Below the pieces are notes generated by a model. It worked only from the letters and a program-made list of their open reading frames with translations, was not told where the DNA came from and made no database searches. A stretch of DNA of 64,000 nucleotides, from NCBI GenBank assembly GCA_016879935.1, contig JAACJQ010000153.1, positions 1 through 64,000 on the forward strand, given 5' to 3'. Source of the stretch: Archangiaceae bacterium. Lineage in GTDB: Bacteria > Myxococcota > Myxococcia > Myxococcales > Myxococcaceae. This document shows, in pieces, positions 8,569 through 48,771 of this stretch (position 1 is its first letter; every line of letters begins with the position of its first letter). A program made the translations under genes and the position numbers.

Positions 8569-8569
8569 C

Positions 8570-10441: not shown

Positions 10442-10464
10442 CGACGTCGTTGGGGGAAGAGCAC

Positions 10465-11496: not shown

Positions 11497-11554
11497 TCGT
11501 TCTCGCGAGAGCCTTTCCCGCAGTCGCTGCCGGGCGTACAAACCCGACTGCCCC

Positions 11555-12589: not shown

Positions 12590-12590
12590 G

Positions 12591-13184
12591 TCAGATCGGC
12601 GCGAAGATCTTGAGGCCCGAACGCCCGCCCGCCGCGAGCGTGTTTCGCTCGATGAAGTCGCTGTAGCTGCTGCGCCCGTCGCCCGAGGTGATGGCGGTGT
12701 GCCCGTAGATGCTGCCGAGCCGGCTCGAGGTGCGCTCCCAGGTGAGAATGAGGCCCGGCGTACGCAGCGCCTCGGCGAGCGACATGTTCACCTGGCGGAA
12801 GCGGTTGCGAGGCAGGTTGTTGTCGATCTGGTTGCCGTTGCCCCAGACCTTGATGCCGTACGTGCGTTGAATCGCGCGGCTCACGCCCGTCGCGCAGAGC
12901 CCCTGGCTGTTGTACCCGCCCATGCTGCCCGCCACCGCGCGCGCGTTCGCTGCGAGGCTCGACGAACCGTGCACACCCGAGCTGCTCGGCCGAACACCGG
13001 TGGTGTGCGTCGGCTTCGCGGGCGTGAAGGAGTCGGTCGAGCCCGGAATGCGGAGCGACCGGCCCGCATAGATCAGGTTCACGTTCTTGATGCCGTTGGC
13101 CCGAGCGAGCGCCGAGACGCTCGTCTTGTAGCGGGCTGCGATGCCAGACAACGTGTCGCCACTGCGAATCTTGTAGGTTCCCAT
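12591..13184 (-). CDS. LysM protein with CHAP/NlpC-like C-terminal domain
   Basis: 197 residues. A LysM peptidoglycan-binding domain occupies residues 4-47 ('[29 protein letters not shown]'). After a Ser/Thr/Pro linker, residues 85-197 contain C97 in '[10 protein letters not shown]' and H162 in 'YGHTAI', the spacing and context of a papain-like (CHAP/NlpC) amidase or endopeptidase. There is no classical signal peptide, which is usual for some LysM proteins delivered by other routes. It may cut cell-wall peptides of the cell itself or of prey. The catalytic role is inferred from two residues only. Confidence 0.7.
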
Positions 13185-13271
13185 GCGAGAGTTCTCGACA
13201 GCGCCGCACTCTCGTTGAGCGAGAACCCTGTAAGCGGAGTTTGCGGAATCGCTGGGAAACCGAAAATCTCG

Positions 13272-14369
13272 TCAGTCAGCGCTCTCGTAGATCGCCCGCG
13301 TCGCCTTCGCGGTCTCGGCCCACGCAAACCGTGAGGCGTGCGCTCGACCCCGCGCTGCGAGCGCCTGACGTTCACTCGGGCTCGAGAGCAGCTGGTCGAT
13401 CTTCCCGGCGAGTGCGTTCACGTCGTCGACGCCGACCTGCCACGCGCCGGCACCGCACACCTCGGGCAGCGAGCCCGCGTTCGAGATGATCGTCGGCACG
13501 CCGAGCCGCATCGCTTCGAGCGGCGGCAGCCCGAAGCCCTCGTAGCGTGAGGGAAAGACGAACACGCCCGCGCGCTTCATCAGCGCGTAGAACACCGAGT
13601 CTTCCAGGTAGCCGAGGGGCCGCACGTCGACGCCGCGCTCCTTGAGCTGCAGCACCTCTGTCTCGATCGCGCCGCTCCCGAACCAGCGTTGCCCGGCGAG
13701 CACGAGCGTCGCGCGACGGCCCTGCGCGTGAAGCTGCTCCATCGCCTTCAGCACGAGGCCGACGTTCTTCCGCGCATCGAGCGAGCCCGCGTACAGCACG
13801 AAGGTCTCGGGCAGGCCGAGCGCGTCGAGCCACCTCACCGTCGTCGAATCGGGCGGCGCCACCTGCTCGACGTGATCGACGCCGTGATGAATGACGCACA
13901 CCTTCGAAGGATCGACGTCGAAGTGTTCGAGCAGGCTGTCACGCGCGACTTCGGAGACGCAGATGATGCGATCAGCCACGGTCGCCGCGCGCGCGAGCCA
14001 CAGCCGGAACTGCCAGCGAAACGCCGTCGAGACGGTCTCTGGCAGCAGCAGCGGTACGAGATCGTGCACCGTCAACACGTAGGGAACGCCGGGCACGCGA
14101 GAAAAGGGCAGGTTGAAGTTCGCGAGCGCGTGGAAGAGGCGCGGCTTGCGGCGGGCGAGCTCGAGCGCGAGGTTCACCACCGTCCACCCGGAGCGCGAGG
14201 CTCGGCCACGAGGCAGCTCTCCGCTCTTCCGCGCGCCCCAGCGTTCGACCTCGAGGCCCGAGCTCGTCAGCGCGCGATGCAGCTGCCGCGTGTACAGACC
14301 GATGCCGGTGATGGGCTCGTCCCAGAGAGAGGCGTCGAGGGCGATGGACTGCACGATGTGGGCGCCCAT
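13272..14369 (-). CDS. Family 4 glycosyltransferase
   Basis: 365 residues from the ATG at 14369. It is a GT-B fold enzyme of the GT4 type that transfers sugars from nucleotide donors with retention. The N-terminal domain has 'TGIGLYTRQLHRAL' and 'VLTVHDLVPLLLPET'; the C-terminal domain starts near 'FVLYAGSLDARKN' and contains the E-x7-E motif in 'YEGFGLPPLEAM'. The cytoplasmic enzyme probably adds a sugar during surface polysaccharide synthesis, consistent with the Wzm/Wzt exporter genes 6 kb downstream. No strong ribosome site is visible before the ATG. It is divergent from the PilZ gene at 14421. Confidence 0.88.
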   Translation of the reverse strand: MGAHIVQSIALDASLWDEPITGIGLYTRQLHRALTSSGLEVERWGARKSGELPRGRASRSGWTVVNLALELARRKPRLFHALANFNLPFSRVPGVPYVLTVHDLVPLLLPETVSTAFRWQFRLWLARAATVADRIICVSEVARDSLLEHFDVDPSKVCVIHHGVDHVEQVAPPDSTTVRWLDALGLPETFVLYAGSLDARKNVGLVLKAMEQLHAQGRRATLVLAGQRWFGSGAIETEVLQLKERGVDVRPLGYLEDSVFYALMKRAGVFVFPSRYEGFGLPPLEAMRLGVPTIISNAGSLPEVCGAGAWQVGVDDVNALAGKIDQLLSSPSERQALAARGRAHASRFAWAETAKATRAIYESAD

Positions 14370-14420
14370 AACACACGGCCGGTTACACGCTCGTGACGAG
14401 ATCGGGCAGGGTTCGCCGCC

Positions 14421-14720
14421 ATGAACGAGCGTCGCTCCCTCGATCGCAAGCCAGTTCGGTTCCTCGTGCAGCACCAGACGTCGACCGACGCCGGCTACGA
14501 GGTCGACTACGCGAGCGATCTCTCGGCGGGCGGCATGTTCATTCGGTCGAACGTCACGCCGACTCCGCACGCGACGGTTCACGTTCAGTTCGCGCCCGCG
14601 AAAGACGCTCCGCTGGTGAGCACCTTCGCGCGCGTCACGCACGTTACGCCGCACGGGTTCGGAACGGCCTTCATCGGCCTCGATGCCGAAGGCGCGCGTG
14701 CGATCTCGTCGGTGCTCTGA
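14421..14720 (+). CDS. PilZ domain protein
   Basis: 99 residues. The cyclic-di-GMP binding signature is complete: R9-x-x-x-R13 and D33-x-S35-x-x-G38, followed by the 'GTAFIGLD' strand. This is the minimal PilZ fold with no other domain, so it is a receptor whose output comes from protein contacts. It lies between two polysaccharide-related genes, divergent from the GT4 gene, so control of exopolysaccharide or surface properties by cyclic-di-GMP is plausible but not shown. It is not closely similar to the PilZ protein at 906. Confidence 0.88.
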   Translation: MNERRSLDRKPVRFLVQHQTSTDAGYEVDYASDLSAGGMFIRSNVTPTPHATVHVQFAPAKDAPLVSTFARVTHVTPHGFGTAFIGLDAEGARAISSVL

Positions 14721-14768
14721 GCTCGTCGTTTTCAGCACCAGCGCTGCGGCCTGAGCTCGATCTGCTGA

Positions 14769-17393
14769 TCAGGTCGCAAAGTGAGCGGTCGCCGACTTCA
14801 CGGCGGTCAGGCGCTCAGGCGGCACACCCGCAGCAGCTTCGACGACACACGAACGCACGACCACTGGCGACACCTTCTTCAAACGTTCGAGCGTCGCCAC
14901 GTCCCACGGGTCGATTCGGGGCATGCCCGGCTTGACCCCGACGCGCAGCTCGCCGCCGCTGAGTTCGAACGAGAAGGACGCGTTGGTCGCGGTGATGCGC
15001 TCGAGCTTCGGCAGCTGCGCGCTGGCCATCAGCAACACGTCGACCGGCAGCTCCCCGTGCTGGTTCGAGGTTCCGAGTTCGACGCGGCGCACCTTCGCGA
15101 AGAGCGGGTGCTGGAAGAGCGTCGGTGGCAACGGCACGAACATCGTGAGACCGAGACACTCGAGCTTCGGGAAGGCCTCGGCGCGCAGCGAGTCGGGCAG
15201 CTCGAAGTCGGCGAGCTCGATGCGCTCCAAAGCCCAGGGGAAGTCGCGGTTGGCTGCGAGCCCCAGCATCGCACCGCCCACGACGAGCGAACGAAGGCCG
15301 TACAGCTGGCCCTTCTCGATGAGCCGAGTGGCGGCCGGGCTGTCGACGGCGTTGGGGTGGTACTTCACCTGAAGCTCGCGAATGGTGACCCACTTCGGGT
15401 CGTCGACGAACGCGTCGAGATCGGTCACGACCTTGTACTCATCGACGCGCTCCTTCACGGGCAGACCGAGGTGGTAGTTCGAGAGTTGTTTGAAGATGCC
15501 GAGCTTGCGGGCGCAGGCGTCGTGGGCGCTCTTCACCTTCTCTCCACGTGAGAGCGCGACCGCGAGGTTGATGAACTCGGCGCGCGGGTCGCCACGCTCA
15601 GCGAGGAAGTCGGCGTAGACGAGTCGCGGCGAGGGATCGTCGGGAGCCGCGTTGATCGCCAACAGCAGGCCGAGCGCCTTGTCTGGCTGCTGCTCCGACT
15701 TCTTCGAAGCGGTCGCGCGTGCGGCGAGCTGCTCGAGCTTCGTGAGCAGCTTCGAGTCGTTGGCGAGCAGCGGCGTCGGGTTGGCGAGTCGATCGAGGTA
15801 CGGCTGCAGCGTTCGAACCGCGTGCGGTCGCTCGGCGCGGTTGCGATCGAAGTTGACCGCGTTCGTGAGCCGCTCCGCGTTGGCGCGCACCTTCTCGGCG
15901 AAGCGCGGGTCGGCGTGCGTGACGAGCAGGTCGTAGGCGCGGCTCCACAAGTTCGGCCGCGCGCCGATGTACGGGTCTCGTCCGAAGATGAGTCGTTCGA
16001 TCACACACCGGGCCACGCGTGGATCGGGTGGCCACGCCAGCATCGACTCGAGTCGGTGCTCGGTCAGCACGAGCGTTCCTTTGAGCAGCGTCGCCAACAG
16101 CGGCGTGACCAGCTTCGCGTCGAAGGGCTTCGCCGCGGCCAGCCAACGCTCGTGAAACGCGTCTGGCTTTCCCTCCTCGGTGAAGGGCACGGCACCGGCC
16201 TTCGCGAACGACTCGACCAGCTGCGCGATCTCGGGTGAGCGGGAGTGCTCCCAGGCCTGGCGCAGCGGCTCGAGGACGTCGAGTACACGACCCGCCTCCG
16301 CGTGGGCGACCGCCGCTTCGAGCGCCGCCGTCGTTCCAGCGAGCAGCGTTCGTGGCGCGTCGGGTTTCGGTGGCGCGGCCGCGACAGGTGTGGGCCCGGC
16401 GAGCAGCTTCTCGGCGTGCTTCTGCCGTTTCGCCACGCTCGCCGCCTGGGTCTTCGACAGCTCCGCAGGGGCCGGCAGGTCGTCGATGGCCCGCGAGATC
16501 CACCCCGCGAACTTCGGCCAGAACTGCGACTCGCCACCTTTCTTCTTCTTGCGAGCCTCGAGGCGCTTCGTGGCGCGCGTATCGACCACGTCGGGGAGCG
16601 CCTTGAACAACTGCGTCCACGCGGGGAAGTTGCTCGAGGCAGTGAACGGCGGCTCGTCGATCATCGTGAGGAGCGCTTCGCCGAGGCGCGGATCGGAGCC
16701 GTGGTCGAGCAGCTTGCGCAGTCGAAGCGGAATGGCCCCGACCGGGTCGTTCCAGAGCCCGGGCAGGAGCGTCGCGAGGTTCTCGGGACAGAGCTGAGTG
16801 GCGCGAGCCTTCCACTGCGCGTCGTAGTCGTCGGCCTCGGGGTCGAGCGCAGGCCAGGCGCGCGCATGGTGTTTCGAGAGCGTGTCGATGAGCGTCTCCA
16901 GCTCGGGAGCACGCGTTTGTCTCCACTCGTCGATCACGTCGGAGAGGGCGAGCGGCTCGGCGGCCGGGGTGGCGGGAGACGGTGCCGGGCGCTCCTTCGT
17001 CGCTTTCCCACGGAGCAGGGCAACGTCTTCGTCGGTGAGTTGCCTCGGCGTCTGCAGGCTCATGCCCAACGCGCCCTTCTTCGGTGCGAGCCCTTTGCCG
17101 GTCGTGAACTTCAGCTCGGAGATGAGCGCGGTGACGTCGCGCACCGCCAGCTTCGAGGGGGCGCTCCTCCACGCCTTCCCGTCGTGCTTCGGATCGACCA
17201 GCTCCCCGACGAGCCACAGCCGCTCGTCCGGAGGCCTGACCGTCACGAGGAACAGACTGCCGCCCGCCTTCAACCCGGTCAGCGCAGCGTTGGTGCTGAT
17301 GTAGCGGTCGAGCTCCAGCGCATCGCCTTCTCTGGCGTCAGGGTGGCTCGTTTCGAACTGCGCCTTGGCGATGATCGCGAGGAGGTTGGCCAT
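14769..17393 (-). CDS. Large protein with TIGR02996 repeat-companion domain
   Basis: 874 residues from the ATG at 17393; upstream in-frame starts to 17546 read through non-coding sequence. Most of the protein is helical and unrecognised. Around residue 625 it contains the short conserved block 'LLLAINAAPDDPSPRLVYADFLAERGDPRAEFI', which matches the TIGR02996 'repeat-companion' domain found in Planctomycetes and Myxococcota beside leucine-rich-type repeats. The following 230 residues have leucine-rich character ('LYGLRSLVVGGAMLGLA', 'FPKLECLGLTMFVPL', 'LPKLERITATNASF'), fitting that pairing. There is no signal peptide. The function is unknown; a scaffold or interaction role is likely. Confidence 0.75.
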   Translation of the reverse strand: MANLLAIIAKAQFETSHPDAREGDALELDRYISTNAALTGLKAGGSLFLVTVRPPDERLWLVGELVDPKHDGKAWRSAPSKLAVRDVTALISELKFTTGKGLAPKKGALGMSLQTPRQLTDEDVALLRGKATKERPAPSPATPAAEPLALSDVIDEWRQTRAPELETLIDTLSKHHARAWPALDPEADDYDAQWKARATQLCPENLATLLPGLWNDPVGAIPLRLRKLLDHGSDPRLGEALLTMIDEPPFTASSNFPAWTQLFKALPDVVDTRATKRLEARKKKKGGESQFWPKFAGWISRAIDDLPAPAELSKTQAASVAKRQKHAEKLLAGPTPVAAAPPKPDAPRTLLAGTTAALEAAVAHAEAGRVLDVLEPLRQAWEHSRSPEIAQLVESFAKAGAVPFTEEGKPDAFHERWLAAAKPFDAKLVTPLLATLLKGTLVLTEHRLESMLAWPPDPRVARCVIERLIFGRDPYIGARPNLWSRAYDLLVTHADPRFAEKVRANAERLTNAVNFDRNRAERPHAVRTLQPYLDRLANPTPLLANDSKLLTKLEQLAARATASKKSEQQPDKALGLLLAINAAPDDPSPRLVYADFLAERGDPRAEFINLAVALSRGEKVKSAHDACARKLGIFKQLSNYHLGLPVKERVDEYKVVTDLDAFVDDPKWVTIRELQVKYHPNAVDSPAATRLIEKGQLYGLRSLVVGGAMLGLAANRDFPWALERIELADFELPDSLRAEAFPKLECLGLTMFVPLPPTLFQHPLFAKVRRVELGTSNQHGELPVDVLLMASAQLPKLERITATNASFSFELSGGELRVGVKPGMPRIDPWDVATLERLKKVSPVVVRSCVVEAAAGVPPERLTAVKSATAHFAT

Positions 17394-34564: not shown

Positions 34565-37114
34565 ATGAGTGACGAAGTCGTTCAAGTCTGGGTTCGCAAC
34601 GAGAAGGGCCAGGTCTTCGGCCCGCTGTCGCCATCGAGCGTCGAGCTGCTCCTCGACAACGGCGTCATCGTCGGCCGCGTCCAGGTCTCACTCGATGGCA
34701 TCAACTACGTCTTCCCGGGCCGAATGCCGGGCATTCGCATGGTCTTCCCCAAGACGCTGTGGGGCGACCAGGTCTTGCCACCCAACGAGCTCGACGACGT
34801 CTGGTCGAAAGTGGTGGCGCCGCCGCCGCTGCCCACCGCGGCGCCTCAGGCAGGGGGAGCGGGCGCGGTTCCGGGTGGCCCGGTTCCCGGAGGGCCCGTC
34901 GCAGGGCCGGGTGCCGCACCTCGAGCAGGCCCGATGGCAGGGCCAGGCGCACGGGCAGCCCAGACGCAGGTTCGGCCACCGCCTTCGGCTCAGCAGCGCC
35001 CGCCGCAGCCCCGCACTGCCCCGACGGGTGTGCCCATGGTGCAACGGCCCGGAGCGCCCGCCGCTCCCGCCAGCCTCGGCGATTCCTTGTTCGGCGACAT
35101 GCCGCAGAGCAGCCCCTCTCAGGTGATGTCGACGCCCTCCGGCATTCGGGCCGCGCCCCCTGCGGCGCCCCGGCCGGCCGCGAACTCGATGGCGTCGATC
35201 GCCGCAGCGATGGGCCAGGCGCCGATGCCACCCGCGCCGGCGCCCGTTGCGCCGCCGTTCGCGAGCTCTCCGTCGACCGCGACGGCCGCACCACCGCCAC
35301 CGCAGAGCCGCCCGTCGTCGGTCGCTGCAGCCGCCGCGCTCGAGCAGCTCCCTCAAGGCGGAACCCTCACCGACTTCACCGCGCGCCGCCTCTATTTCCT
35401 CGCCGCCGCGCAGGACACGACGGGCCTGCTCACGCTGCAGCTGCCCGACCGCGCGGTGATGCTGCACTTCCGCAAGGGCAGCCCCGACTCGGTCGAGTCG
35501 ACCCACCCCGACGACGCGCTCGCGACGTTCCTGCTGCGTCAGCGATTGGTAGGGCCCGAGCAGCTGGGGCAGGCGCAGAAAGAGGGCGCGCGCTTCGGTG
35601 GCGAGCTGCTGCCAGCGCTGTTCGGCCTTGGCCTGCTCAACCCCAACGCCGCCATCGAGGCGCTCAACCAGCGCGTGGCGGGGCTCATCGGGCTGGCGCT
35701 GCGTTCGACCGAAGGCAGCTTCACCTTCCAGGCGATCGATCTTCCCGCGCAGAAGGCGATGCCGCCGGGCAACCGATGGCAGCTCTACGTCGAGCAGCTG
35801 CGCAAGCTGTCGGTGGCCGAGCTTCGTGAGCAGCTCATCTCGGCGCTCGACTTCCCCATCATGAAGGCGAGCGGCGCGGTGGCCATCGGCGACATGCGGC
35901 TGTCACCGCAGGAGACGCGCGTGTACTCGCAGTTCGACGGCACGCGCACGCTCAACACGTTCCTCCAGGCGAACGCGCCCGAGACGGAGCACGCGCTGCG
36001 GGTCGCCTTCATGCTCGAGCCGTGCGATCTCGTCTCGTTCGCGGGAACGGTCGTGAAGACGTCGGCGCCGGCACGCAACGCGCCCCGCACACCCGCCGCT
36101 GGAGCACCGGTCGCGCCTCCGAAGCCGGTGGTGATGGCTCCCGTCGCTGCGCCGCCTCCAGTCGCTGTGCAGCCCAGTGTCGTGCCAGGCCCGCCTGTCG
36201 CACCCCGTGTTCCGTCGTACCCCGGTGCGCCGCCGCCACCAGGCGCCCAGCCGGCCCGCCCGCCCCCCGTGATGCCTCAAGCGGCGCCCGCACCGGTCGC
36301 GCCCGCTCGACCCGTCATCACGGCAGCGGGGCCCGTCATCGCCCCACCGGCGGCTGCCCCACCCGCCAACGCAGCCCCTCCACGGATCGCCGCGCCCGTC
36401 GTCGCGCCCACCGTCGCGCCTGCCGCCGTTCAGAACTTCACCGCCGACATCAAGCGGCTGACCGACCTGCTCGCGACGATGAAGAAGCAGAACCACTTCG
36501 AGGTGCTGGCCGTCACGAAGGACTCGCCCGCGAGCGCCGTGAAGGTCGCCTACTTCAAGCTCGCGAAGGATCATCACCCAGACACGGTTCCAGCCGGCGC
36601 GCCCGAAGCGCTGCACAAGCTCAAGGTCGACATCTTCGCGCGCATCGGAGAAGCGCACCGCACGCTCTCGGACGAGAACCTGAAGAAGGAATACGTCGCC
36701 GAGCTCGAGTCAGGTGGCGCAGGCGAGAAGATCGACGTCTCGAAGCTGCTGCAGGCCGAGGAGTACTTCCAGAAGGGGAAGATCCTCATTCAGGCGCGCA
36801 AGTACCCCGAGGCATTCAAGATGTTCGATGACGCCATCGCGCTCACGCCCGAAGGCGACCCCGAGGCGTACACGTGGCGTGGGTACGCGCGCTTCTTCAC
36901 GTTCCCCGACAAGAAGGCCGGGCTGGTCGAGGCGATGAAGGACGTCACCAACTGCCTCAAGCGCAACCCGAACGTGGTAGCCGCGCATTTCCACCAGGGA
37001 ATGATGCACAAGATCCTCGGAGACATGGCGGCGGCCAAGAAGCACTTCCAGGCCACCGTGAAGCTCGACCCCAAGCACATCGACGCGCAGCGCGAGCTGC
37101 GAATGATGAAGTGA
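34565..37114 (+). CDS. Multidomain scaffold: GYF-like, DUF4388, J domain, TPR
   Basis: 849 residues. Residues 1-65 resemble a GYF_2-type domain ('VWVRNEKGQVFGPLSPSSVELLLDNGVI'). A Pro/Ala-rich linker leads to a DUF4388-like region (about 258-410: 'GTLTDFTARRLYFLAAAQDTTGLLTLQL.DRAVMLHFRKG'), common in delta-proteobacterial regulators. After a second Pro/Ala linker, residues about 640-700 form a J domain with the essential HPD at about 670 ('AKDHHPDT'), and 730-845 hold TPR repeats. The J domain should stimulate a DnaK-type chaperone. Similar mosaics are frequent in myxobacteria, with roles unproven. The GTGA overlap couples it to the next gene. Confidence 0.85.
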   Translation: MSDEVVQVWVRNEKGQVFGPLSPSSVELLLDNGVIVGRVQVSLDGINYVFPGRMPGIRMVFPKTLWGDQVLPPNELDDVWSKVVAPPPLPTAAPQAGGAGAVPGGPVPGGPVAGPGAAPRAGPMAGPGARAAQTQVRPPPSAQQRPPQPRTAPTGVPMVQRPGAPAAPASLGDSLFGDMPQSSPSQVMSTPSGIRAAPPAAPRPAANSMASIAAAMGQAPMPPAPAPVAPPFASSPSTATAAPPPPQSRPSSVAAAAALEQLPQGGTLTDFTARRLYFLAAAQDTTGLLTLQLPDRAVMLHFRKGSPDSVESTHPDDALATFLLRQRLVGPEQLGQAQKEGARFGGELLPALFGLGLLNPNAAIEALNQRVAGLIGLALRSTEGSFTFQAIDLPAQKAMPPGNRWQLYVEQLRKLSVAELREQLISALDFPIMKASGAVAIGDMRLSPQETRVYSQFDGTRTLNTFLQANAPETEHALRVAFMLEPCDLVSFAGTVVKTSAPARNAPRTPAAGAPVAPPKPVVMAPVAAPPPVAVQPSVVPGPPVAPRVPSYPGAPPPPGAQPARPPPVMPQAAPAPVAPARPVITAAGPVIAPPAAAPPANAAPPRIAAPVVAPTVAPAAVQNFTADIKRLTDLLATMKKQNHFEVLAVTKDSPASAVKVAYFKLAKDHHPDTVPAGAPEALHKLKVDIFARIGEAHRTLSDENLKKEYVAELESGGAGEKIDVSKLLQAEEYFQKGKILIQARKYPEAFKMFDDAIALTPEGDPEAYTWRGYARFFTFPDKKAGLVEAMKDVTNCLKRNPNVVAAHFHQGMMHKILGDMAAAKKHFQATVKLDPKHIDAQRELRMMK

Positions 37115-37506
37115 GATTCAGCGTGGCGCTCAACGGCAAGCAGCGGCGGTACCTTCGTTCACTCGGTCATCACCTGCATGCAGTCGTGCAGGTCGGTGAC
37201 GCTGGCGTCAGCGAGGGCGTGATCTCGGCGACGGCGCAGGCGCTCGAGACGCACGAGCTGGTGAAGGTGCGCATCGCCGACGAACGTGAAGGGCGTGAGG
37301 CGGCCATCGAGCAGCTGGCCGAGGGCACGGGCTCCGAGGTGGCGCAGGTGCTGGGCCGCACGGTGCTGCTCTTCAAGCGGCGCGCGAAGAAGCCGGCGAT
37401 CAAGTTCGACGGTGAAGTGTTCCCCGTCGAGAAGGACGCGAAGGCGAAGCGCGTCGTGAAGAAGGCGAAGCCGGCTAGCCGCCGAACGCCACGAAGCCAA
37501 GATTGA
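37111..37506 (+). CDS. YhbY/CRM-type RNA-binding protein
   Basis: 131 residues from the GTG overlapping the previous stop (a second GTG at 37123 gives the more usual 'VALNGKQRRYLRS' start). The CRM fold is clear: 'LNGKQRRYLRSLGHHLHAVVQVGDAGVSEGVI', with the GxxG-like loop and 'ALETHELVKVRI'. YhbY proteins bind pre-50S ribosomes and assist ribosome assembly. The C-terminal 30 residues are basic and rich in Lys/Arg. The last 32 bases overlap the convergent gene at 37475. Confidence 0.85.
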   Translation: MRFSVALNGKQRRYLRSLGHHLHAVVQVGDAGVSEGVISATAQALETHELVKVRIADEREGREAAIEQLAEGTGSEVAQVLGRTVLLFKRRAKKPAIKFDGEVFPVEKDAKAKRVVKKAKPASRRTPRSQD

Positions 37507-37993: not shown

Positions 37994-38025
37994 GTCGTTT
38001 CTGTTGCCGGACGCCCGACGAACGA

Positions 38026-38937
38026 TCAGCGCGCTGAGGTGACAGCCCGTTGGTGGCGTTCGTTCAGGTGTTTCAACGGATCAGCAGACTCGATCCAGGC
38101 CGAGATCTGTTGCGCATCGAAGGTGATGACGAGTCGGCGGTCTGTCGACCGCTTGGCGAGTTCCTGGTGGAACTCCCACGTGAACCCGCCCACAGAAAAG
38201 TAGAAGCCAATCGAACCTCGCTCGTGTTTCGTCTCGAGCTTGCTCAAGAAGTCACGAGCCTGCGGCGCTCCACTGGGCTTCGACCAATTCTTGCACTCGC
38301 CAAAGAAGTACTGGCTCTCCTTGCTCCAGAAGGGGTCAGTGCTCGAGTTGCGAACTACGATGTCGATCTCTTCGGAGTCCGTTCGCAGATTTGCGGTGAC
38401 CTCTCCGAAGCTCGGAATCGCCCGGAAGAGAAGCTGCATGACGCGCTCGAGGAGAGCTCCCTTTCTCTGGGGGTCGAGTTCCTGCTGAGCCGATGTCCAG
38501 GCCGCCTTGAGCTGTGCTGGGCCGCGAATCGCGTTCAACCGGCGCTCAGTCGTGATCTCCACTGCGTTGCGGACTTTCGCCTTGAGCAGCGCTGCGAAGG
38601 TGCCGCTCTTTTCCAAGTAGTCGTACACGCCGGCAGCGAAGGCCGTCTCGATTGCGTCATCAGACGCATAACCGGTGACGATGATCGGCTTGGCAAAGGG
38701 CGCGAGGTTCTGAGCTGTCCGGAGCAACTCGAGTCCAGAGTCGGGGCCACCCGGGCCCTGCAGCTTTTGATCGATGAGCACGACGTCGAAGTCGGAACCT
38801 GGCTTCGAAAGAAGCTCGATGGCCTCTGCGGCCTTCGACGCCACCTCGACGGCGTGGCCAGCACCAGTGAGGATCTCGCGGTAGAGATCTACGAACCCTT
38901 TGTCGTCGTCGACGATGAGAATCTGTCCGCTGCTCAT
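38026..38937 (-). CDS. Response regulator fused to PD-(D/E)XK nuclease-like domain
   Basis: 303 residues. Residues 1-125 form a receiver domain: acidic D10-D12, phospho-acceptor D56 ('VVLID'), T88 ('IIVTGY') and K110 ('YLEKSG'). Residues about 145-285 look like a restriction-endonuclease (Mrr/PD-(D/E)XK) fold: E164 in 'GALLERVMQLLF', D192 in 'SEEIDIVV', and E214-C-K216 in 'QYFFGECKNW', the E/D...ExK metal-binding set, followed by 'KPSGAPQARDFLSKLETKHERGSIGFYFS'. A phosphorelay controlling a nuclease-like output is unusual. The start overlaps the kinase stop (ATGA at 38934-38937), so the pair is co-translated. Activity is inferred from motifs only. Confidence 0.85.
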   Translation of the reverse strand: MSSGQILIVDDDKGFVDLYREILTGAGHAVEVASKAAEAIELLSKPGSDFDVVLIDQKLQGPGGPDSGLELLRTAQNLAPFAKPIIVTGYASDDAIETAFAAGVYDYLEKSGTFAALLKAKVRNAVEITTERRLNAIRGPAQLKAAWTSAQQELDPQRKGALLERVMQLLFRAIPSFGEVTANLRTDSEEIDIVVRNSSTDPFWSKESQYFFGECKNWSKPSGAPQARDFLSKLETKHERGSIGFYFSVGGFTWEFHQELAKRSTDRRLVITFDAQQISAWIESADPLKHLNERHQRAVTSAR

Positions 38938-40364
38938 GGGGTCGGCTCCTGAAGCGGAAGGGCTATCACGAAGCGTGCTCCGCCGAGGTCGCTCCGCTCA
39001 CATCGAATCGAGCCCCCGTTCGCCATGATGACCTTCCGGGCGAAGGCCAGGCCAAAGCCCGAGCCGCCCGGTTTCGTGGTGAAGCCATCGTCGAAGACGC
39101 GTTCACGATCCTCTGCAGCGACGCCTGGCCCATCATCGTCAACGGACAACACGGCGTGGCGACCCTCGATGCGCGCAGCGAAGATGACCTGCTTCACGCT
39201 TGGGATTTGCAGCGCATTGAGGACGACGCCCGCTGCGGCTCTTCGGACGCTGTCGACGTTAAGCTTGAGTTGGCCTTCTGCCACAACGAGGCGAAGCCGG
39301 TCCGGTTCATCGGCCGCCAAACGGACACCATCCATAAGGTGTCGCACGGTGATGAGACTCGGCCGTTCACTCACCATTTCCGAGGTGATGACCATCTCGT
39401 CGATGAAGCGCAAAGTCCTCAGCACACCTTCGTGGGCTTTTCGTAGTCGTTCGGAGTCTCCGGCACGGGCTCGAAGCACCTCGGTGAGATGATGGCGCGT
39501 GGGGACGAGGGCGTTCCGAACCTCATGGGCGATCAGCCGAACCTGCTCCTGGGCGGCCTCGAGCGCGGAGGGACCCGAGAACGATGCGATCGGCGATGCT
39601 CTATCGGTGAGCGCCTGACGGGCTGCCGCTCGCCAAGGTCCATCGCGAAGAGCAACGCCAACTGATTCGAGCGAGGCTGGTGCGATGACGACTTCGTAGG
39701 GTTCTTCTGCGTTGTCGAAAAAACGCGCACGGAGTACCCCGAAGCCAGTCAGGCGGGCGAAGGGTAGAAGTGCGAACGGCCAGTAGAGGTCACCCGTCCT
39801 CGAGTTGACCTCTTGTTGGATGCCCTCGCTCAATGCGCTCAGAAGTGTCGTCGAGATCCGCTCTTCATCAGGCTCGCTTGATTGCTCTACCTCAAGAACG
39901 AGCAGCCACTTGAGCGCATCGACTTTTCCAAGCGTGACGAGTGCGCGGCCTGCTCTCCTGAGGGCCTCAGACCCACGGGCGATCAGGCCGAGGTCTTCGC
40001 AGTATGAGCGAGTGAGAACCCCGGCCGACAGGCAGAGCTGTGCGACCCTCGAGGCCTCATGTTGCTCCATCAGACTCCCGGTGCCACCTCCGTGGGCGGC
40101 GGCATCAAGCACTGCGCGAGCATACTCCTGAGTTTGTGCGAGGAGTTGATGAGGCGGCAGAGTTTCCAACGTCGTAGCGAGGTCATCCAGCCCATTTGCC
40201 CATTGAGCGTGTCGAAGAGACCCCGACCACTCACTGAGCTTCAGCAGTCTGCTTTGGAAGTGACTCCGCAAGTCCGCTCGGTCGACCTCCCAGGTCTTGG
40301 GCCCAAGCAGTTGCTTCCCATCCGAAACGTTTCTCAGGAACGCCTGAACATCTTCGACGCGCAT
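38934..40364 (-). CDS. Sensor histidine kinase, cognate of nuclease response regulator
   Basis: 476 residues from the ATG at 40364, fixed by a GGAGG site 5 bases upstream. There is no signal peptide or membrane helix, so the sensor part (about 1-265, helical, unrecognised) is cytoplasmic. H280 in 'RLIAHEVRNALVPTRHHL' is the phospho-acceptor; N383 in 'VVLNALQI', 'DDDGPG' (409-414) and 'GGSGFGLAFARKVI' (433-446) form the ATP-binding lobe. It should phosphorylate the response regulator encoded in the overlapping downstream gene. Three spaced AACCGGGGG repeats precede the gene. Codon use is less G/C-biased than in flanking regions. Confidence 0.9.
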   Translation of the reverse strand: MRVEDVQAFLRNVSDGKQLLGPKTWEVDRADLRSHFQSRLLKLSEWSGSLRHAQWANGLDDLATTLETLPPHQLLAQTQEYARAVLDAAAHGGGTGSLMEQHEASRVAQLCLSAGVLTRSYCEDLGLIARGSEALRRAGRALVTLGKVDALKWLLVLEVEQSSEPDEERISTTLLSALSEGIQQEVNSRTGDLYWPFALLPFARLTGFGVLRARFFDNAEEPYEVVIAPASLESVGVALRDGPWRAAARQALTDRASPIASFSGPSALEAAQEQVRLIAHEVRNALVPTRHHLTEVLRARAGDSERLRKAHEGVLRTLRFIDEMVITSEMVSERPSLITVRHLMDGVRLAADEPDRLRLVVAEGQLKLNVDSVRRAAAGVVLNALQIPSVKQVIFAARIEGRHAVLSVDDDGPGVAAEDRERVFDDGFTTKPGGSGFGLAFARKVIMANGGSIRCERSDLGGARFVIALPLQEPTP

Positions 40365-40386
40365 CACCGCCTCCAAACCAACCGTT

Positions 40387-40480
40387 CCCCCGGTTCCGAG
40401 TTGGCCGCAGAGCGCTGCCTGGAACCGGCCCCCCGGTTCCGACGAGCACTCGGCAGACGGGGAGAACCCTCCCCCCGGTT
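40387..40480 (-). promoter_or_regulatory. Three helically phased direct repeats upstream of histidine kinase
   Basis: On the minus strand, TCGGAACCGGGGG occurs exactly twice (40430-40442 and 40387-40399), and a shorter copy, AACCGGGGG, is at 40472-40480. The spacing is 42 and 43 bases, close to four turns of DNA, so all three face the same side of the helix. They fill the short gap between the upstream gene's stop and the kinase start at 40364. Such an array suits cooperative binding by a regulator, perhaps autoregulation. No promoter consensus is obvious. Confidence 0.4.
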
Positions 40481-41207
40481 ACTCGTTCTCCTCCTTCGGC
40501 TTCCCTTCGTCCGGAGCTGTCAGCTTCGCGCCACCGCCCGACGCGACCGGAGGAACGAGCGTCGCCGCCTCGTTGTACGTGGTGACCGCGGCGACGGCAG
40601 TACGAAGCCGCTCGTGGAGCTGCGTCACGATCGTCGCCAGCCTGTCGCGCTGGTCGCCCTCTTCGCTGTTGTCCTCACCAACGCTGCCGATTGCGGCGAG
40701 AGCCGCCTTCGCGGCGGACGAGGCGTTGCCAAGAGCGCCAGCGCCGAGCACTGACTCGGCGGCGGTCTTCATCGGAGCGAGGAGCTCGACGAGGTCGAGT
40801 ACGTCTTGAACCGTGTCGGAGACGCCCGTTCCGCTCGCGATCACCGCGACCTCGCGAGCGTCGACTTTGCCCGCCTCGGCAAATGTCTGTGCGAGGGGAA
40901 GCAGCGCACGCCGCCACTTGGTTGCTCCGTTGATGATCTCTCGCGAGCGAGCCGGACTCGAGGCGTTCTGCGCCTTGCGCTGCGCGTTCTTGAGCGCGTC
41001 GCAGAGATCGGGGAGCAACAGCAGTTCGTCGAGAGAGAACCCCGGGAACTTCTCGCGGAGGGGTCGGGCGTGCTTCTTTGCGGTCTTGAGTCCTGTGTTG
41101 CATGCGCGCTTCGCCTCGACCGGGTCGAACTGGAGGCGTACGACCTCCTTCGGTCTCAAGTCCTGCGCGCGCTCCAGGAGAGTCTCCAACGTCACCTTCG
41201 TAGCCAT
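40479..41207 (-). CDS. Unknown helical protein upstream of kinase-nuclease pair
   Basis: 242 residues from the ATG at 41207, fixed by a GGAGG site 5 bases upstream. The protein looks all-helical and soluble, without signal peptide, membrane helix or any motif I recognise. Segments include 'ALKNAQRKAQNASSPARSREIINGATKWRRALLPLAQTFAEAG' and an Ala-rich helix near residue 160; the C-terminus is acidic. It is on the same strand as the kinase and nuclease response-regulator genes, 114 bases upstream, and may be a third component of that system, or only a neighbour. Confidence 0.65.
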   Translation of the reverse strand: MATKVTLETLLERAQDLRPKEVVRLQFDPVEAKRACNTGLKTAKKHARPLREKFPGFSLDELLLLPDLCDALKNAQRKAQNASSPARSREIINGATKWRRALLPLAQTFAEAGKVDAREVAVIASGTGVSDTVQDVLDLVELLAPMKTAAESVLGAGALGNASSAAKAALAAIGSVGEDNSEEGDQRDRLATIVTQLHERLRTAVAAVTTYNEAATLVPPVASGGGAKLTAPDEGKPKEENE

Positions 41208-41346
41208 GAACGCCTCCGATCCTGAAAGTGGGAGACCGGACAATATGCGGCCCATTCGCTACGAGGAAGTTGCGTAACAGCGATGGACCCACTGGTCTCG
41301 GCGTGCTCAGGTCCTTGCGGTCTCAAGACACGCGAACGGGGGAAGT

Positions 41347-42798
41347 GTGAACTACTCGAAGATGATTGTGGTGGTGGTGATTCTGGGCGTTGGGTTGTCA
41401 AGCGCGCCAAGCGAAGCGTGCAACTACGCCAACACCGTGGTGCGGACGGCCAACGGAGAGTTGTTGATCACCGCTCCGGACTGCGGGGTGAGCAGCGGAG
41501 TCGACGTTTCCAGCTACATGATTTCGGCGAAGGGCTCCTATGCCAACGCCATGACCATCGCGAATCCTGTGCCTACGACCAACACCTGTCTCAGCTCGAG
41601 TCCCAATCTCCTAGACTGTGCTGGGTACTCGTTTGACTGCAAGGTCTGCGGCGCTGACCCAAACGGCTACCCTGGTGAGATTTCTTGCTTCTGCATCTCT
41701 CCTACGATGTTCCCCCGTAATCGTCACCGGCGTCTGCCGGAGAATCACTCGGTCGCGATCGCGAGCCAGTTGTGGGTCGATACCAATGCCGACGGACAAC
41801 TCGCATCAGGTGAGCCGGTCTTTTCTTCAAACCCGGCCGGTAACAATGGCAGCAACCAAGTCCGCTACTATGAACTGCACAATCAGCTATGGCTGGCTGA
41901 GTGGGAGGACCAGTTCATGAACGGCAACGGAGATTTTAACGACTATGCCGCTGTGATCGAGCCGCGCATTTGCAACGGCCTCCCTTTCCCCGTTCTCTAT
42001 AATGAGGGGGGCGCCTGTGCCTTTACTTGTGCTGCGGAGACAGACCCGCTTTGTGGCGAAGACATTATTCGAGCCGATGCTGTCTCGTTCCACGCGGCTG
42101 TCGGTGTCGACAGCGAAACCAGCGAAGGGGATCGCGAGGGACGAGGGCGCTTGCTGAGAGTCGCGGTGTCAACCTACTACCGTCGCTTTCTCGCGAACCG
42201 CAAGTTCGCCACTTGCCCCAGCCTCGTCGTCAAGACGAAGTCCAATACAGTTCCACCCCTCGCCGAGCGGTTCGACTACGGTGTCCAACCCAACGACGCC
42301 GGAGTTTGTCAGCCTATCGGGGCAGTTGGTGATACGCCTCAGTGTAGGACTGCTGGGCCGAACCCGTTTGCTGGAAGCGCCTATCCGATCGCGCTCGCGC
42401 GCGAGCAGTTCTACAAAGCGAGCGATGCGTGCGCGCCAAATATTCGAACTGTCAGTGACGACTTCACTGCGAGCGGGTTCGGAACGTGCAAGGAGGGACA
42501 AGAGGGCGGGCACACTGAACTGTACGAGATTAGTTTGGACATGGTGAATAACGCTGCGGCCACATCCGAGCTTGACTTCATCGACCCGGTGACTGGTCAG
42601 ATGCAGACGGCGGCGGAAATTCTCGGTCGCATCTCCTATGTGTATGTGTTGTTTGTCCAAGACCCGCCGGCAGGCTTTCATTGCCCTTCGGGAGTGAATG
42701 CTGCGATAGGTGCCTTCGACCTTGCGGGCACTGTGAACGCGTTCGACCGAACGCTGCCAGTTCCGAGTCCGAGTGTCCGCTTGTACACGAGAGACTAA
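41347..42798 (+). CDS. Secreted Cys-rich protein, DUF4114-like segment
   Basis: 483 residues, GTG start with a strong GGGGGAAG site directly upstream. The signal peptide ends near 'PSEA/CNY'. The exported part has many cysteines and a 'DQFMNGNGDFNDYAAVIE' segment resembling the calcium-binding motif of DUF4114-type domains, plus 'VDTNADGQLASGEPVF', a second calcium-loop-like sequence (D-x-N-x-D-G). It is probably a calcium-stabilised surface or secreted protein. GC content and codon use are lower and more mixed than in the flanking core genes. It may form a unit with the lipoprotein gene that starts one base after its stop. Confidence 0.75.
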   Translation: MNYSKMIVVVVILGVGLSSAPSEACNYANTVVRTANGELLITAPDCGVSSGVDVSSYMISAKGSYANAMTIANPVPTTNTCLSSSPNLLDCAGYSFDCKVCGADPNGYPGEISCFCISPTMFPRNRHRRLPENHSVAIASQLWVDTNADGQLASGEPVFSSNPAGNNGSNQVRYYELHNQLWLAEWEDQFMNGNGDFNDYAAVIEPRICNGLPFPVLYNEGGACAFTCAAETDPLCGEDIIRADAVSFHAAVGVDSETSEGDREGRGRLLRVAVSTYYRRFLANRKFATCPSLVVKTKSNTVPPLAERFDYGVQPNDAGVCQPIGAVGDTPQCRTAGPNPFAGSAYPIALAREQFYKASDACAPNIRTVSDDFTASGFGTCKEGQEGGHTELYEISLDMVNNAAATSELDFIDPVTGQMQTAAEILGRISYVYVLFVQDPPAGFHCPSGVNAAIGAFDLAGTVNAFDRTLPVPSPSVRLYTRD

Positions 42799-42799
42799 G

Positions 42800-43915
42800 G
42801 TGCGGCTTTTTTCGTTGGCCTCGGCCGCCCTTCTGGCCGCCTGCGGTTGCTCTTGCCGTGCTCCAGTTGCGGCGGACGCTGGTGCACAGCGGGGCGCTCG
42901 CTGTGTCGATGCAGGGCCTCTTGCGATATCAATTCATGAGTCGGTTGGGGCCAGCTCCAGTGTTGCGGCGTTCAGCGTGGAAGAACCGGGCGGCACCGCT
43001 GCCTGGGTGATCGTCGCAACCGACGGTGGCACGAATACCTACTCGCTTGTTGATAGTTGCAGCTTTGGAGAGCGGCTCTTGCGCGAGTTGCCAGTTCAGA
43101 GATCACAACGCGTACACATCCTGGGCAGCGTTGCTCCCGCCATCGTCTCGTCGGCAACGCCCGATGGTGTCGAGACCAGGGTCGACCTGTTTGGCGAGGA
43201 CTCAGGAGTGAGGTTTGCCGACTGCACTTCGGTCAGTGCGCCTGCTGAAGTGGCTCGACTTGCTTCGAATTCAGCCATGTTTCTTCCCGGTCTGTGCGCA
43301 GATAGCTGCGGAGCCTCAAGGCTCTTCTTCTTCTCAGGCGGAAGGGTCCTTGGGAGGCAATGCTTGCCGGGGTCGGACGACTTTGGCTGGGTTCCTTCGA
43401 GTTCGCTTGCGGCCTATTCAACTTCACTGCTTCCAGGAAACACCGCCCAGTGGCACGTGTTTGTCTCCGAGTTCGAAGTGGATGGAACGGTTCGCCAATC
43501 GACGGTGGCAGTTAGTGCTGTGCCCGTGCAAGGGTTCGTTTCGAGCCGGAGTTTCTTGAGTTGGGTCGCTCGAGATCCACGAGCTCCATTTGCACCATCT
43601 CGTATTCAGGTTGCAACGCTTGTCGACGACGGGGGCCTCGCGTTGCGAGATGACACCGAACTCGGCCAAGTCGTCCCGATTCCCGAAGTGTTTGTAGACA
43701 GCCCGTCAGCCCCGGTCGTTCTCGGACTGCAGATCGATGGAGGCGAGGCGTTGGCGGTCATGTCTGGCAACCAAGTCGTTCGTAGCGCGGTTGGCTCCAT
43801 CGCTCGTGAATGGGGCCTGGCGCGACATCGCGCGGCGCTGAGCAACGGGCTGCTGTGCAGAATTGCAAGGGGCCCGCTGGATGGTGGCGTGAGCTACTCG
43901 TTGGTTTGCGAATAG
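42800..43915 (+). CDS. Lipoprotein of unknown function
   Basis: 371 residues from the GTG at 42800. The signal peptide ends in a lipobox (LLAACGCSC). The mature protein is beta-rich with several cysteines and no family I recognise ('AAWVIVATDGGTNTYSLVDSC', 'RLFFFSGGRVLGRQCLPGSDDFGWVPSSSLAAYST'). It follows the secreted-protein gene after a single base and shares its mixed codon use, so both were probably acquired together. The last 22 bases overlap the convergent PNPOx-like gene. An upstream ATG at 42773 would spoil the signal peptide. Confidence 0.7.
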   Translation: MRLFSLASAALLAACGCSCRAPVAADAGAQRGARCVDAGPLAISIHESVGASSSVAAFSVEEPGGTAAWVIVATDGGTNTYSLVDSCSFGERLLRELPVQRSQRVHILGSVAPAIVSSATPDGVETRVDLFGEDSGVRFADCTSVSAPAEVARLASNSAMFLPGLCADSCGASRLFFFSGGRVLGRQCLPGSDDFGWVPSSSLAAYSTSLLPGNTAQWHVFVSEFEVDGTVRQSTVAVSAVPVQGFVSSRSFLSWVARDPRAPFAPSRIQVATLVDDGGLALRDDTELGQVVPIPEVFVDSPSAPVVLGLQIDGGEALAVMSGNQVVRSAVGSIAREWGLARHRAALSNGLLCRIARGPLDGGVSYSLVCE

Positions 43916-45739: not shown

Positions 45740-48040
45740 TCAGTCGGCCATGTTCTTGTTCGCGCGCTGAATCACCGGCGCGGGAGCAGCAACGGCCTTC
45801 GACGCCTTCACGGGAGCCGGCGCGGGCGCAGCGACCACCGGAGCCGGCTTCGGCGCGGGAGCGGGGGCGACGGCGACGGTGCGGGTGGCGACCGGCTGCG
45901 ACTTCTTCACCATCGGCTCGGCGACGACGGCGGGCTTGGCAGCGACGGCGACAGCCGCGGCAGGCTTCTTCGAGGCGGGGGCGTTCATCACGACGGCGGC
46001 GAGGCGGCCCGACTTCGGCGCGATCTCGAAGGCGCGAATGGCCTCGGCGGTGGCGGCATCGAAGGCCGAGCGCGTCTTGCCAGCCGGCGTGAAGGGCAGG
46101 GTGGCGACGTAGGGCTTGTTCGAGTTGCGCTCCACCGCGGTCATGTCGAGCTGGCACCAACGCGCGGTCTTGTCGCACGAGAGGTTGGTGAAGATGTACG
46201 CGAAGCCGCGGGCGCAGTGGTGCGAGGCGCAGGTCTCGTTCATCTCGACCGCCAGGGCCGAGAGGTTCTTCGCGGTGATGTCGAGCTCGACTTCTTCGGC
46301 GACGACCGGCGCAGCAGCGGGCGCGGCGACGACCTCGGCCTTCGTGACAGGAGCAGGCTCGGGAATCACGACGGGCTCGAGCGCGGCGATCTTCGTCGGC
46401 TTCACCTCTTCGACCGCCTCGGGGGCGAGGGCGAGCGTGCCCATGTTCTTCGGGCACATCATGCCGGCCGTCTTGCGCGAGAGCCCCATCGGGCCACCGG
46501 CGTAGAGCATGTTCACGTCACCCGAGTTCATCGAGCAGGCCGCGACGACGTTGTCACGCGGGCAGGCGCTCCGGGCGTACTCGCCCTTGAACATCTCGCA
46601 GCCCTTCTTCGCCGCGTCGGTGTGCGAGGCGTACTCGGTGCACGAGCCGTTCGAGGGCAGGTTGCACGAGGCGACGCCAGCACGAATCGCGAACGGGTCG
46701 GCAGGCGCAGCGACCTTCACCGGCTCTTCGGCGACGGGCTCGACGACGGCAGCCTCGGCGACGACCTCTTCCGCGGCAGGCTCTTCGGCGACCGGAGCGG
46801 CGAGCCCAGCCTTGCGCGCCTTGTACTCGGCGACCTTCTGCTTGAGCTTCTCCTGGCGCGACAGCTTCGGCGCCGACTTCGCCGCAGCGGCGACGGCGGC
46901 AGGCTTCGCGGCCGGCTTCACTTCAGGGTGCTGCTCGGCGATCTCGAGGTCGAACGACAGGCCGCCCTTCACCGTCGTGTTGTACCGGTCGGTCACCTTC
47001 ACCGTGTAGACGCCGGGCTCGAGCTCGAGGCTGCCCTTCGCCGGCTTGCCCGTCTCGGGCGAGTCCATGTCGAGGAGCAGGTTGCCCGACGCGTCTTCGA
47101 CCTGAACGATGGGGTCGATCTGAATCTTCTTGCCGGCCGCAGGCGAGACCGTGAAGTCGTAGGTGTCCTTGCGGGTGACGGTCCAGGTGAACGTCTCGCC
47201 AGCCTCGGTCGACACGCTCTCGCTGCACTTCGCGACGGCGCCGGTCAGCGTCGAGGCGCACATGCCGCCGAACACGTGGTTCGGATCAGACGGGCCCGAA
47301 TCGCTCACCGGCCCGAAGATCATCAGGGGCACCGACAGCACCGCCGCGACGCCGCCACCGATGAACGAGAACTTCTTCTTCTTGTTGATGCTGCCGATGA
47401 GGCCGTCACGGCCCTTCGCGCTGGTCATGAGCGAGCGCCAACCCGGCTTGACGATCTTGCCGCCCTCGATCTTGCCGAGCACGAACAGGCTGCCTTCGAC
47501 CGGCACGTACTTCTCGGTCGCCTTGAAGCCGATGGTGTACTTCTCGGAGTCGCTGATGACGGGCACGTCGAACGACATCTCGCCGAACTGAATCTGCGAG
47601 GCCCAGCCGCGGCCGTTCAGTTCCTTCTTGAAGCCGTCCTTGTAGTTGTCGAAGTCGGCGCCCTTGGTGACGTCGATCTGAATCGCGCCCGAGCCGTCGT
47701 CGACGCCGAAGATCGCGCCGCCCTTCACGGTGTCGAGGGTGTCGGAGCCCTTGACGGTCTTGGTGCCGTCCTGCGTGGTCTCGATCTTCTCCCACAGGCG
47801 CTCGACCTTCACTTCGTAGGCGAGGCACGGCTGCTTCGTGCAGGGCGAGAGCAGCTGCTGTGCGGGGGCGATCACCTTGCCCTCGGTCGACATCGCGCCC
47901 TTGGGGTCGGTGCTGGTCGGGTTCTTCGCGAGCTCGCCCGTCTTCTTGAAAGGCGCCGCGAGAATGCGCTTGCCCTTGAGGTGCTGGAAGAGGCCGAACG
48001 CCAGAACCGCGACGCCGACGAGAAGCAAAAGAACGCCCAT
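45740..48040 (-). CDS. Membrane protein with GIDE/MULAN-like domain
   Basis: 766 residues from the ATG at 48040, chosen for a GGAGC site 6 bases upstream and because translation then starts at the first membrane helix (residues 1-18). Residues about 25-220 resemble the GIDE domain of mitochondrial MULAN ('PFKKTGELAKNPTSTDPKGAMSTEGKVIAPAQQLLSPCTKQPCLAYEVKVE'), and a second membrane helix follows (about 225-243). Eukaryotic relatives end in a RING domain; here a large exported-type region follows instead: a beta-sandwich ('SVSTEAGETFTWTVTRKDTYDFTV'), an Ala/Pro/Lys-rich stretch and Cys-containing segments. Confidence 0.75.
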   Translation of the reverse strand: MGVLLLLVGVAVLAFGLFQHLKGKRILAAPFKKTGELAKNPTSTDPKGAMSTEGKVIAPAQQLLSPCTKQPCLAYEVKVERLWEKIETTQDGTKTVKGSDTLDTVKGGAIFGVDDGSGAIQIDVTKGADFDNYKDGFKKELNGRGWASQIQFGEMSFDVPVISDSEKYTIGFKATEKYVPVEGSLFVLGKIEGGKIVKPGWRSLMTSAKGRDGLIGSINKKKKFSFIGGGVAAVLSVPLMIFGPVSDSGPSDPNHVFGGMCASTLTGAVAKCSESVSTEAGETFTWTVTRKDTYDFTVSPAAGKKIQIDPIVQVEDASGNLLLDMDSPETGKPAKGSLELEPGVYTVKVTDRYNTTVKGGLSFDLEIAEQHPEVKPAAKPAAVAAAAKSAPKLSRQEKLKQKVAEYKARKAGLAAPVAEEPAAEEVVAEAAVVEPVAEEPVKVAAPADPFAIRAGVASCNLPSNGSCTEYASHTDAAKKGCEMFKGEYARSACPRDNVVAACSMNSGDVNMLYAGGPMGLSRKTAGMMCPKNMGTLALAPEAVEEVKPTKIAALEPVVIPEPAPVTKAEVVAAPAAAPVVAEEVELDITAKNLSALAVEMNETCASHHCARGFAYIFTNLSCDKTARWCQLDMTAVERNSNKPYVATLPFTPAGKTRSAFDAATAEAIRAFEIAPKSGRLAAVVMNAPASKKPAAAVAVAAKPAVVAEPMVKKSQPVATRTVAVAPAPAPKPAPVVAAPAPAPVKASKAVAAPAPVIQRANKNMAD

Positions 48041-48225
48041 CTGGAAGCTCCAGGTGATGCCGCTCGTGGCGGCGGTGAATTGGTTTGGGAGAGGTGAACC
48101 GCCCTCAGGTGCGGGGTAGACCCAAGACCCACCACCTGTGTGCACCAGTATTTTCAGGCGTGTTTCGGGGTTTGACGAAACGGGCTCAAAGGGTAGGGAG
48201 ATCAGTTGGTTGCGAAAGGAAAGAC

Positions 48226-48771
48226 GTGCTCCGAACAGCCTCGATGATTGCTGGCGGTCTGCTGCTTCTGGTCGTCGCAGCCATTTCGATTCTCTATGCC
48301 CTGCAGCCGAACAGCTTTCGGTTGAGCCGCTCGCGCACCATTCCCGCGTCGGCCGGAGCGATACGGCCCTGCCTCGTCGACTTGAAGGTGATGGAGCGCT
48401 GGCAGGTGCACTTCGCCGATCCGCATGATCCACCGACCGTCACGTTCTCGGCCGTGACGAGCGGCGTGGGCGCGTGGGTCGAGCGGAAGGACACGACCAG
48501 CACGGGCCGCACGACGATGGTCGAGGTGACCGACAGCACCGTTCGAATGGAGCACGTGAACGAGGGGCGGCTGGGAACGGGCAAGAGCACCGTCGAGTAC
48601 CTGCTGCGGGAGCGCGGCACGTCGACCGAGGTGGAGTACGCGATCTTCTCTCCGCTCAGCGGGCTGCCGCGGCTGTTGTGGCCGATCGCGAATCTCGAGA
48701 AGCGCATCGGGCCCGACATGGTGAAGGCGCTCGAGCAGCTCGAGACGAAGTGTGTGAACGCCACGCCTTGA
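48226..48771 (+). CDS. Membrane-anchored SRPBCC (polyketide cyclase-like) protein
   Basis: 181 residues from the GTG at 48226, preceded by an AAAGGAAAG site. One N-terminal membrane helix ('MIAGGLLLLVVAAISILYAL') is followed by an SRPBCC/START-like fold: 'FRLSRSRTIPASAGAIRPCLVDLKVMERW' at the start and a long C-terminal helix ('KRIGPDMVKALEQLETKC'). These domains bind hydrophobic ligands in a deep cavity. The ligand is unknown. It is divergent from the GIDE-like gene; no regulatory motif is evident in the 185 bases between them. Confidence 0.8.
   Translation: MLRTASMIAGGLLLLVVAAISILYALQPNSFRLSRSRTIPASAGAIRPCLVDLKVMERWQVHFADPHDPPTVTFSAVTSGVGAWVERKDTTSTGRTTMVEVTDSTVRMEHVNEGRLGTGKSTVEYLLRERGTSTEVEYAIFSPLSGLPRLLWPIANLEKRIGPDMVKALEQLETKCVNATP

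Follow-up and report, generated by a model that had tools for sequence, protein, structure and literature searches.

On its minus strand, the window (the whole stretch of 64,000 nucleotides that was analysed) carries a gene for a soluble histidine kinase followed directly by a gene for a response regulator, in which a receiver (REC) domain is joined through a long helix to a domain of the PD-(D/E)XK nuclease type. The genes and their features are:

38934..40364, minus strand: soluble histidine kinase, 476 aa from the ATG at 40364 (HATPase_c, conserved residues)
39579..40364, minus strand: kinase input domain, about residues 1-262, outside known families
39525..39527, minus strand: H280 codon, predicted autophosphorylation site, in 22/23 kinases
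38934..38937, minus strand: ATGA overlap of kinase stop and regulator start; 4-base overlap in 23/23 pairs
38026..38937, minus strand: response regulator gene, 303 aa, REC + long helix + Mrr-like PD-(D/E)XK domain (open reading frame, Pfam, structure, 23 homologues)
38563..38937, minus strand: REC domain, residues 1-125 (Response_reg match and invariant residues)
38770..38772, minus strand: D56 codon, predicted phospho-acceptor, invariant 23/23
38482..38598, minus strand: continuous 39-residue helix, residues 114-152, from REC to the nuclease domain (DSSP on the AlphaFold2 model)
38038..38481, minus strand: PD-(D/E)XK nuclease-like output domain, residues 153-300 (topology, VIA-align, Mrr_cat)
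38446..38448, minus strand: E164 codon, predicted metal ligand in helix A, invariant 23/23
38362..38364, minus strand: D192 codon, motif II aspartate on core strand 190-197, invariant 23/23
38290..38298, minus strand: E214-C215-K216 codons, motif III (E-x-K) on strand 210-216, invariant 23/23

A survey of other genomes for the kinase-nuclease pair, proposed in the first-pass annotation, recovered 23 homologous pairs in two groups of myxobacteria: 14 in the window's order, two in the genome of Myxococcales MAG L009, where the second pair lies elsewhere in the same genome, and seven more from 379 genomes of the phylum of that MAG. The regulator directly follows the kinase in every one of these pairs, and a 4-base overlap is kept in all of them; for the ATGA of the window, coordinates and strand agree with those given earlier. 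Such a conserved overlapping gene pair suggests that the kinase would transfer phosphate to the regulator.

A soluble histidine kinase with a fast-evolving input domain

The kinase matches HATPase_c in Pfam (E 1.3e-15), and its reading frame is likewise open from an alternative TTG start at 40376. H280 is present in 22 of the 23 kinases, the sole exception being the truncated kinase at locus L119, N383 is present in all 23, and the G1 and G2 boxes are conserved (D410-G412-G414 and G436-G438); the protein combines a phospho-His with the N, G1 and G2 boxes of the HATPase domain. No transmembrane-like segment was found in the kinase (maximum 19-residue KD 1.39), which should therefore be cytoplasmic. 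The kinase is thus as it had been described from the letters alone, cytoplasmic with H280, N383 and an intact ATP lobe.

The input domain has no Pfam match. A winged-helix assignment for it was dropped, as the only HTH_91 match falls in the ATPase region of the kinase. When compared with the kinase core, the input domain has lower identity and higher dN and is the fastest-evolving part of the system, a dN/dS pattern suggesting that the sensor may be changing faster or being exchanged. In several pairs, dS of the input domain is also above that of the kinase core and the regulator.

The regulator output is predicted to adopt a restriction-endonuclease-like fold

The N-terminal part of the regulator matches Response_reg (Pfam, E 1.2e-16 at residues 6-120). 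D10/D11, D56, T88 and K110 are unchanged in all 23 regulators of the homologous pairs, so the acidic pair, phospho-Asp, Thr/Ser and Lys of a receiver are all there, and the earlier assignment of a D56 receiver is confirmed. A plasmid search returned no match spanning 80% of the regulator; its matches were mainly to the REC part. The helix formed by residues 114-152 is a putative coiled-coil dimeriser.

The full-length regulator was modelled with AlphaFold2 on a 15-sequence alignment (mean pLDDT 84.8). DSSP assignment of this model gives the output core as helix 156-172, strands 177-185, 190-197 and 210-216, helix 224-236 and strand 243-247, an alpha-beta-beta-beta-alpha-beta order, with E164, D192 and E214/K216 in the placement expected of PD-(D/E)XK enzymes. 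The predicted model thus has both the core topology of the superfamily and the D...(D/E)xK residues on core strands. Because a full-length fold search yielded REC matches, the output domain (residues 131-303) was modelled and searched on its own (pLDDT 86.9, pTM 0.85). The top VIA-align match was the BspD6I small subunit (Z 11.8, 149 residues, 3.4 A), followed by Nt.BspD6I (Z 11.5), AF1548 (10.3), EcoT38I (9.8), FokI (9.4), MspJI (8.3) and, lower, a CRISPR ancillary nuclease and Avs4 (both 8.1); EndoMS/NucS and Can2-like ancillary nucleases were also among the matches. RPB5, which has a similar fold but is not a nuclease, reached a Z of about 9. Every Foldseek E-value against the output domain was above 0.001, and the fold call accordingly relies jointly on Z, topology and residues. 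A PDB sequence search with the output-domain profile gave nothing meaningful. The first-pass annotation had named two findings that would overturn its reading of a PD-(D/E)XK output in a two-component system, and neither was obtained: structure prediction places residues 131-303 in a restriction-endonuclease-like fold, and E214 and K216 are invariant in all 23 homologues.

Mrr_cat (PF04471) is the only Pfam family that the output domain matches recurrently. The window regulator matches it at residues 163-281 with E 0.0021 and 18.6 bits (18.9 bits for the domain alone), under the curated cut-off of 21 bits, and 14 of 14 homologous domains match it at E <= 0.1, the best at 3.7e-9. No NCBIfam model matches the domain.

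The residues first read as a metal-binding set, E164, D192 and E214-C-K216, are all present, and K159, G160, E164, E189, D192, E214, C215 and K216 are unchanged in the 23 regulators. Position 226 is Q in the window regulator and E in most homologues, so the motif IV residue is variable. In close pairs, REC and nuclease domains are both under purifying selection (omega about 0.04-0.24). Judged from the aligned sequences, conservation of both sites and of the gene overlap across 23 pairs is far more than chance would account for.

These data bear on whether the domain cuts at all. PD-(D/E)XK folds may be catalytically idle or may target RNA, inactive members exist, and most response regulators bind DNA; the domain could accordingly be a non-cleaving DNA- or RNA-binding output of an ordinary transcriptional regulator. 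However, K159, E164, D192, E214 and K216 are conserved above most of the domain, and most relatives with other fusion partners carry the same catalytic set (K/RG-x-x-E ... E-x-x-D ... ECKNW). With both active sites so strictly conserved, we consider a non-cleaving role very improbable.

A proposed model for phosphorylation-gated cleavage

We favour the interpretation that the pair is a two-component system with a phosphorylation-gated, Mrr/FokI-like PD-(D/E)XK nuclease output, and place its probability at roughly 60%. From the gene pair and the predicted fold we infer its signal, phosphotransfer, dimerisation, cleavage and substrate. A cytoplasmic signal would act on the kinase through its input domain; the soluble kinase would autophosphorylate on H280, and the regulator would receive the phosphate on D56. 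Receivers commonly dimerise when phosphorylated, and FokI-type cleavage domains function as dimers, dimerisation being the step that activates FokI. Phosphorylated REC domains would likewise dimerise, and the helix 114-152 would give each nuclease domain the partner that a FokI cleavage domain needs. The paired domains would then cut nucleic acid, most likely DNA, by means of E164, D192, E214 and K216. This phosphorylation-driven pairing of two nuclease domains is the best-supported mechanism. None of the genes beside the pairs is a conserved partner such as a methylase, and self-DNA would therefore need other protection. Candidate roles are a conditional DNA-cleaving response, in defence or as self-directed damage, and DNA processing.

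Distribution of the pair and relatives of the output domain

Within the window's order, the output domain occurs in 16 of 145 genomes, 14 of which have the full kinase/regulator pair and two only remnants; within the genus, one genome of seven has the pair. Outside myxobacteria, 247 genomes of Acidobacteria and 398 of Bacillota were searched, and there the output domain occurs without a receiver; two viral contigs encode solo versions, likewise without REC.

Two altered forms were also observed. At L041 (8194-8817), a nuclease domain that has kept its active-site residues persists as an orphan, without REC or kinase, which argues against the bare domain being strongly toxic, if it is expressed. 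At L052 (370-1187), a deletion fuses the kinase N-terminal region directly to the nuclease domain.

Other relatives have different partners. In the window's bacterial family, a gene at L053 (7590-8903, plus strand) joins HEPN_Toprim_N to this Mrr-type nuclease domain, and a STAND-Mrr nuclease gene at L054 (3986-8973, plus strand) shares a 4-base overlap with a TIR-STAND-TPR gene; by analogy, this two-gene arrangement sharing the output domain resembles conflict systems. L127 provides another STAND fusion. The STAND and HEPN/Toprim-N fusions are conflict-system architectures. In a tree of the domain, in which the very divergent rows L129 and L130 could not be placed, the REC-fused forms group separately from those that are clearly STAND, HEPN/Toprim-N or solo, with weak support at the deep forks.

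Genomic setting and possible roles

In the window, the pair lies in a region of reduced GC content:

38000..43900 (approximate), no strand: low-GC insertion with the kinase and regulator genes, a 258-aa gene, a DUF4114 gene and a 380-aa gene (GC, synteny)

Its GC is about 0.56-0.68, compared with about 0.69-0.75 in most flanking bins. The three hypothetical genes it holds beside the pair (258 aa; DUF4114-like, 483 aa; 380 aa) occupy 40479-43915. The flanks (genes for 897-aa, 423-aa and PNPOx-like proteins on one side, YhbY and DnaJ-TPR on the other) are syntenic in three genomes of the same genus, which lack the pair and the three adjoining genes between them; a fourth has different DNA at the site. 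Syntenic flanks with the pair absent in relatives point to a variable site at which it was gained or lost. The 897-aa gene (45740-48433, minus strand) occurs in same-genus relatives in several copies or fragments.

At a second site, between genes for an OmpA-like lipoprotein and a GNAT protein, six genomes have the pair (four of one genus and two of another) and five cleanly lack it. At defined sites the pair is present or missing as one unit. Pairs L121 and L122 adjoin RsmE, and the same neighbourhood is recognisable around L120 and L123. In these other lineages the pair occupies stable, conserved housekeeping sites, unlike the insertion in the window.

Directly upstream of the kinase at L119 lies a type III restriction-modification system (7996-14959, minus strand; a 948-aa methylase and a 1167-aa restriction subunit). 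The L119 kinase lacks the phospho-His and the nuclease regulator is intact; a sensor swap was ruled out, as the kinase is simply truncated just downstream of the restriction-modification system.

The first-pass annotation suggested a defence, stress-suicide or repair role, and this suggestion fares unevenly: the patchy insertion-type distribution and the STAND and HEPN/Toprim-N relatives fit defence, which the neighbourhoods, with no PADLOC matches among the window neighbours and housekeeping sites for many homologues, do not support. An anti-phage module of the abortive-infection type, in which the kinase would be the infection sensor and the nuclease would degrade the DNA of phage or host, is a possible but tentative role. 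It would explain the patchy spread of the pair in the order and genus, the low-GC insertion missing from three relatives, the fusion of related domains to a STAND NTPase, in one case beside the TIR-STAND-TPR gene, and to HEPN/Toprim-N, the fast-evolving input domain and the restriction-modification system beside one homologue. However, PADLOC finds no match among seven window neighbours, and several lineages hold their homologues at conserved housekeeping sites, unlike mobile defence islands, with regulator divergence there similar to that of neighbouring core genes; the two viral-contig matches, moreover, are solo domains.

In several lineages the pair keeps a stable chromosomal site and seems to be inherited vertically, which would fit a DNA-processing system (repair, recombination, DNA uptake or developmental DNA turnover) triggered by a stress or developmental signal. 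The soluble kinase and the presence of AF1548 and EndoMS/NucS among the structural matches also agree with such a function. Yet most relatives do without the pair, which is therefore not essential, and no repair neighbours are conserved except for a 5'-3' exonuclease in one lineage. This role appears doubtful.

Ribosome- or RNA-related genes lie near homologues at independent sites (YhbY at 36874-37506 in the window, RsmE at 9640-10368 in L121), which may be chance. The nuclease might target rRNA, tRNA or mRNA, and the switch would then stop translation instead of damaging DNA; the relative on a HEPN/Toprim-N protein and the Can2-like nucleases among the fold matches point the same way. The nearest folds, however, are restriction nucleases acting on double-stranded DNA, and we regard an RNA target as unlikely.

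Comparison with known systems

The outputs of two-component systems are overwhelmingly DNA-binding domains or second-messenger enzymes. If the phosphorylation-gated nuclease is real, DNA or RNA cleavage would come under direct, reversible phosphorylation control, and a system of only two genes, in which catalytic and phosphorylation sites are both conserved, is readily testable and possibly useful as a switchable nuclease. A bolder reading, in which a His-Asp phosphorelay directly licenses DNA cleavage as an immune or suicide switch of multicellular bacteria, with the input domain diversifying faster, is speculative and in our view rather doubtful. The papers searched, a set outside of which the main response-regulator reviews fall, contain no description of receiver-nuclease regulators. 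We treat the system as a variant of two-component systems, for which a prior description is possible and novelty not proven.

The closest known response regulator with a nucleic-acid phosphodiesterase output is PorX (REC-PglZ) of the PorXY system, which cleaves oligonucleotides through a metal-dependent phosphodiesterase domain (PMC12205998). PorX has the PglZ fold of the alkaline-phosphatase superfamily, whereas the output here is PD-(D/E)XK; the window regulator and its homologues have no PglZ match, Response_reg and Mrr_cat being their only meaningful Pfam matches. Shedu (SduA, DUF4263) also uses a nuclease effector, and the PADLOC SduA model matches the window regulator. Membership was rejected, as that match is confined to REC (residues 3-98) and the nuclease domains match Mrr_cat, not DUF4263.

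With the Mrr-type restriction endonucleases (PF04471) the output domain has in common the family match and the catalytic residues. Classical Mrr carries a DNA-binding winged helix, in place of which the N-terminal partner here is a receiver under kinase control. The cleavage domains of FokI and BspD6I match best in structure, along most of the output domain (Z 9.4-11.8), at about 10% identity; here there is no sequence-recognition domain, and REC with the helix is the proposed dimeriser. The type IV restriction systems called CoCoNuT are defence systems in which PD-(D/E)xK nucleases are accompanied by REC domains or two-component genes (PMC11090510). The tested neighbouring genes of the window match neither McrB GTPase nor McrC, and membership in CoCoNuT or McrBC was rejected. 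CoCoNuT systems have McrB GTPase/McrC, and their REC belongs to a coiled-coil protein of its own (PMC11090510), whereas here receiver and nuclease form one protein.
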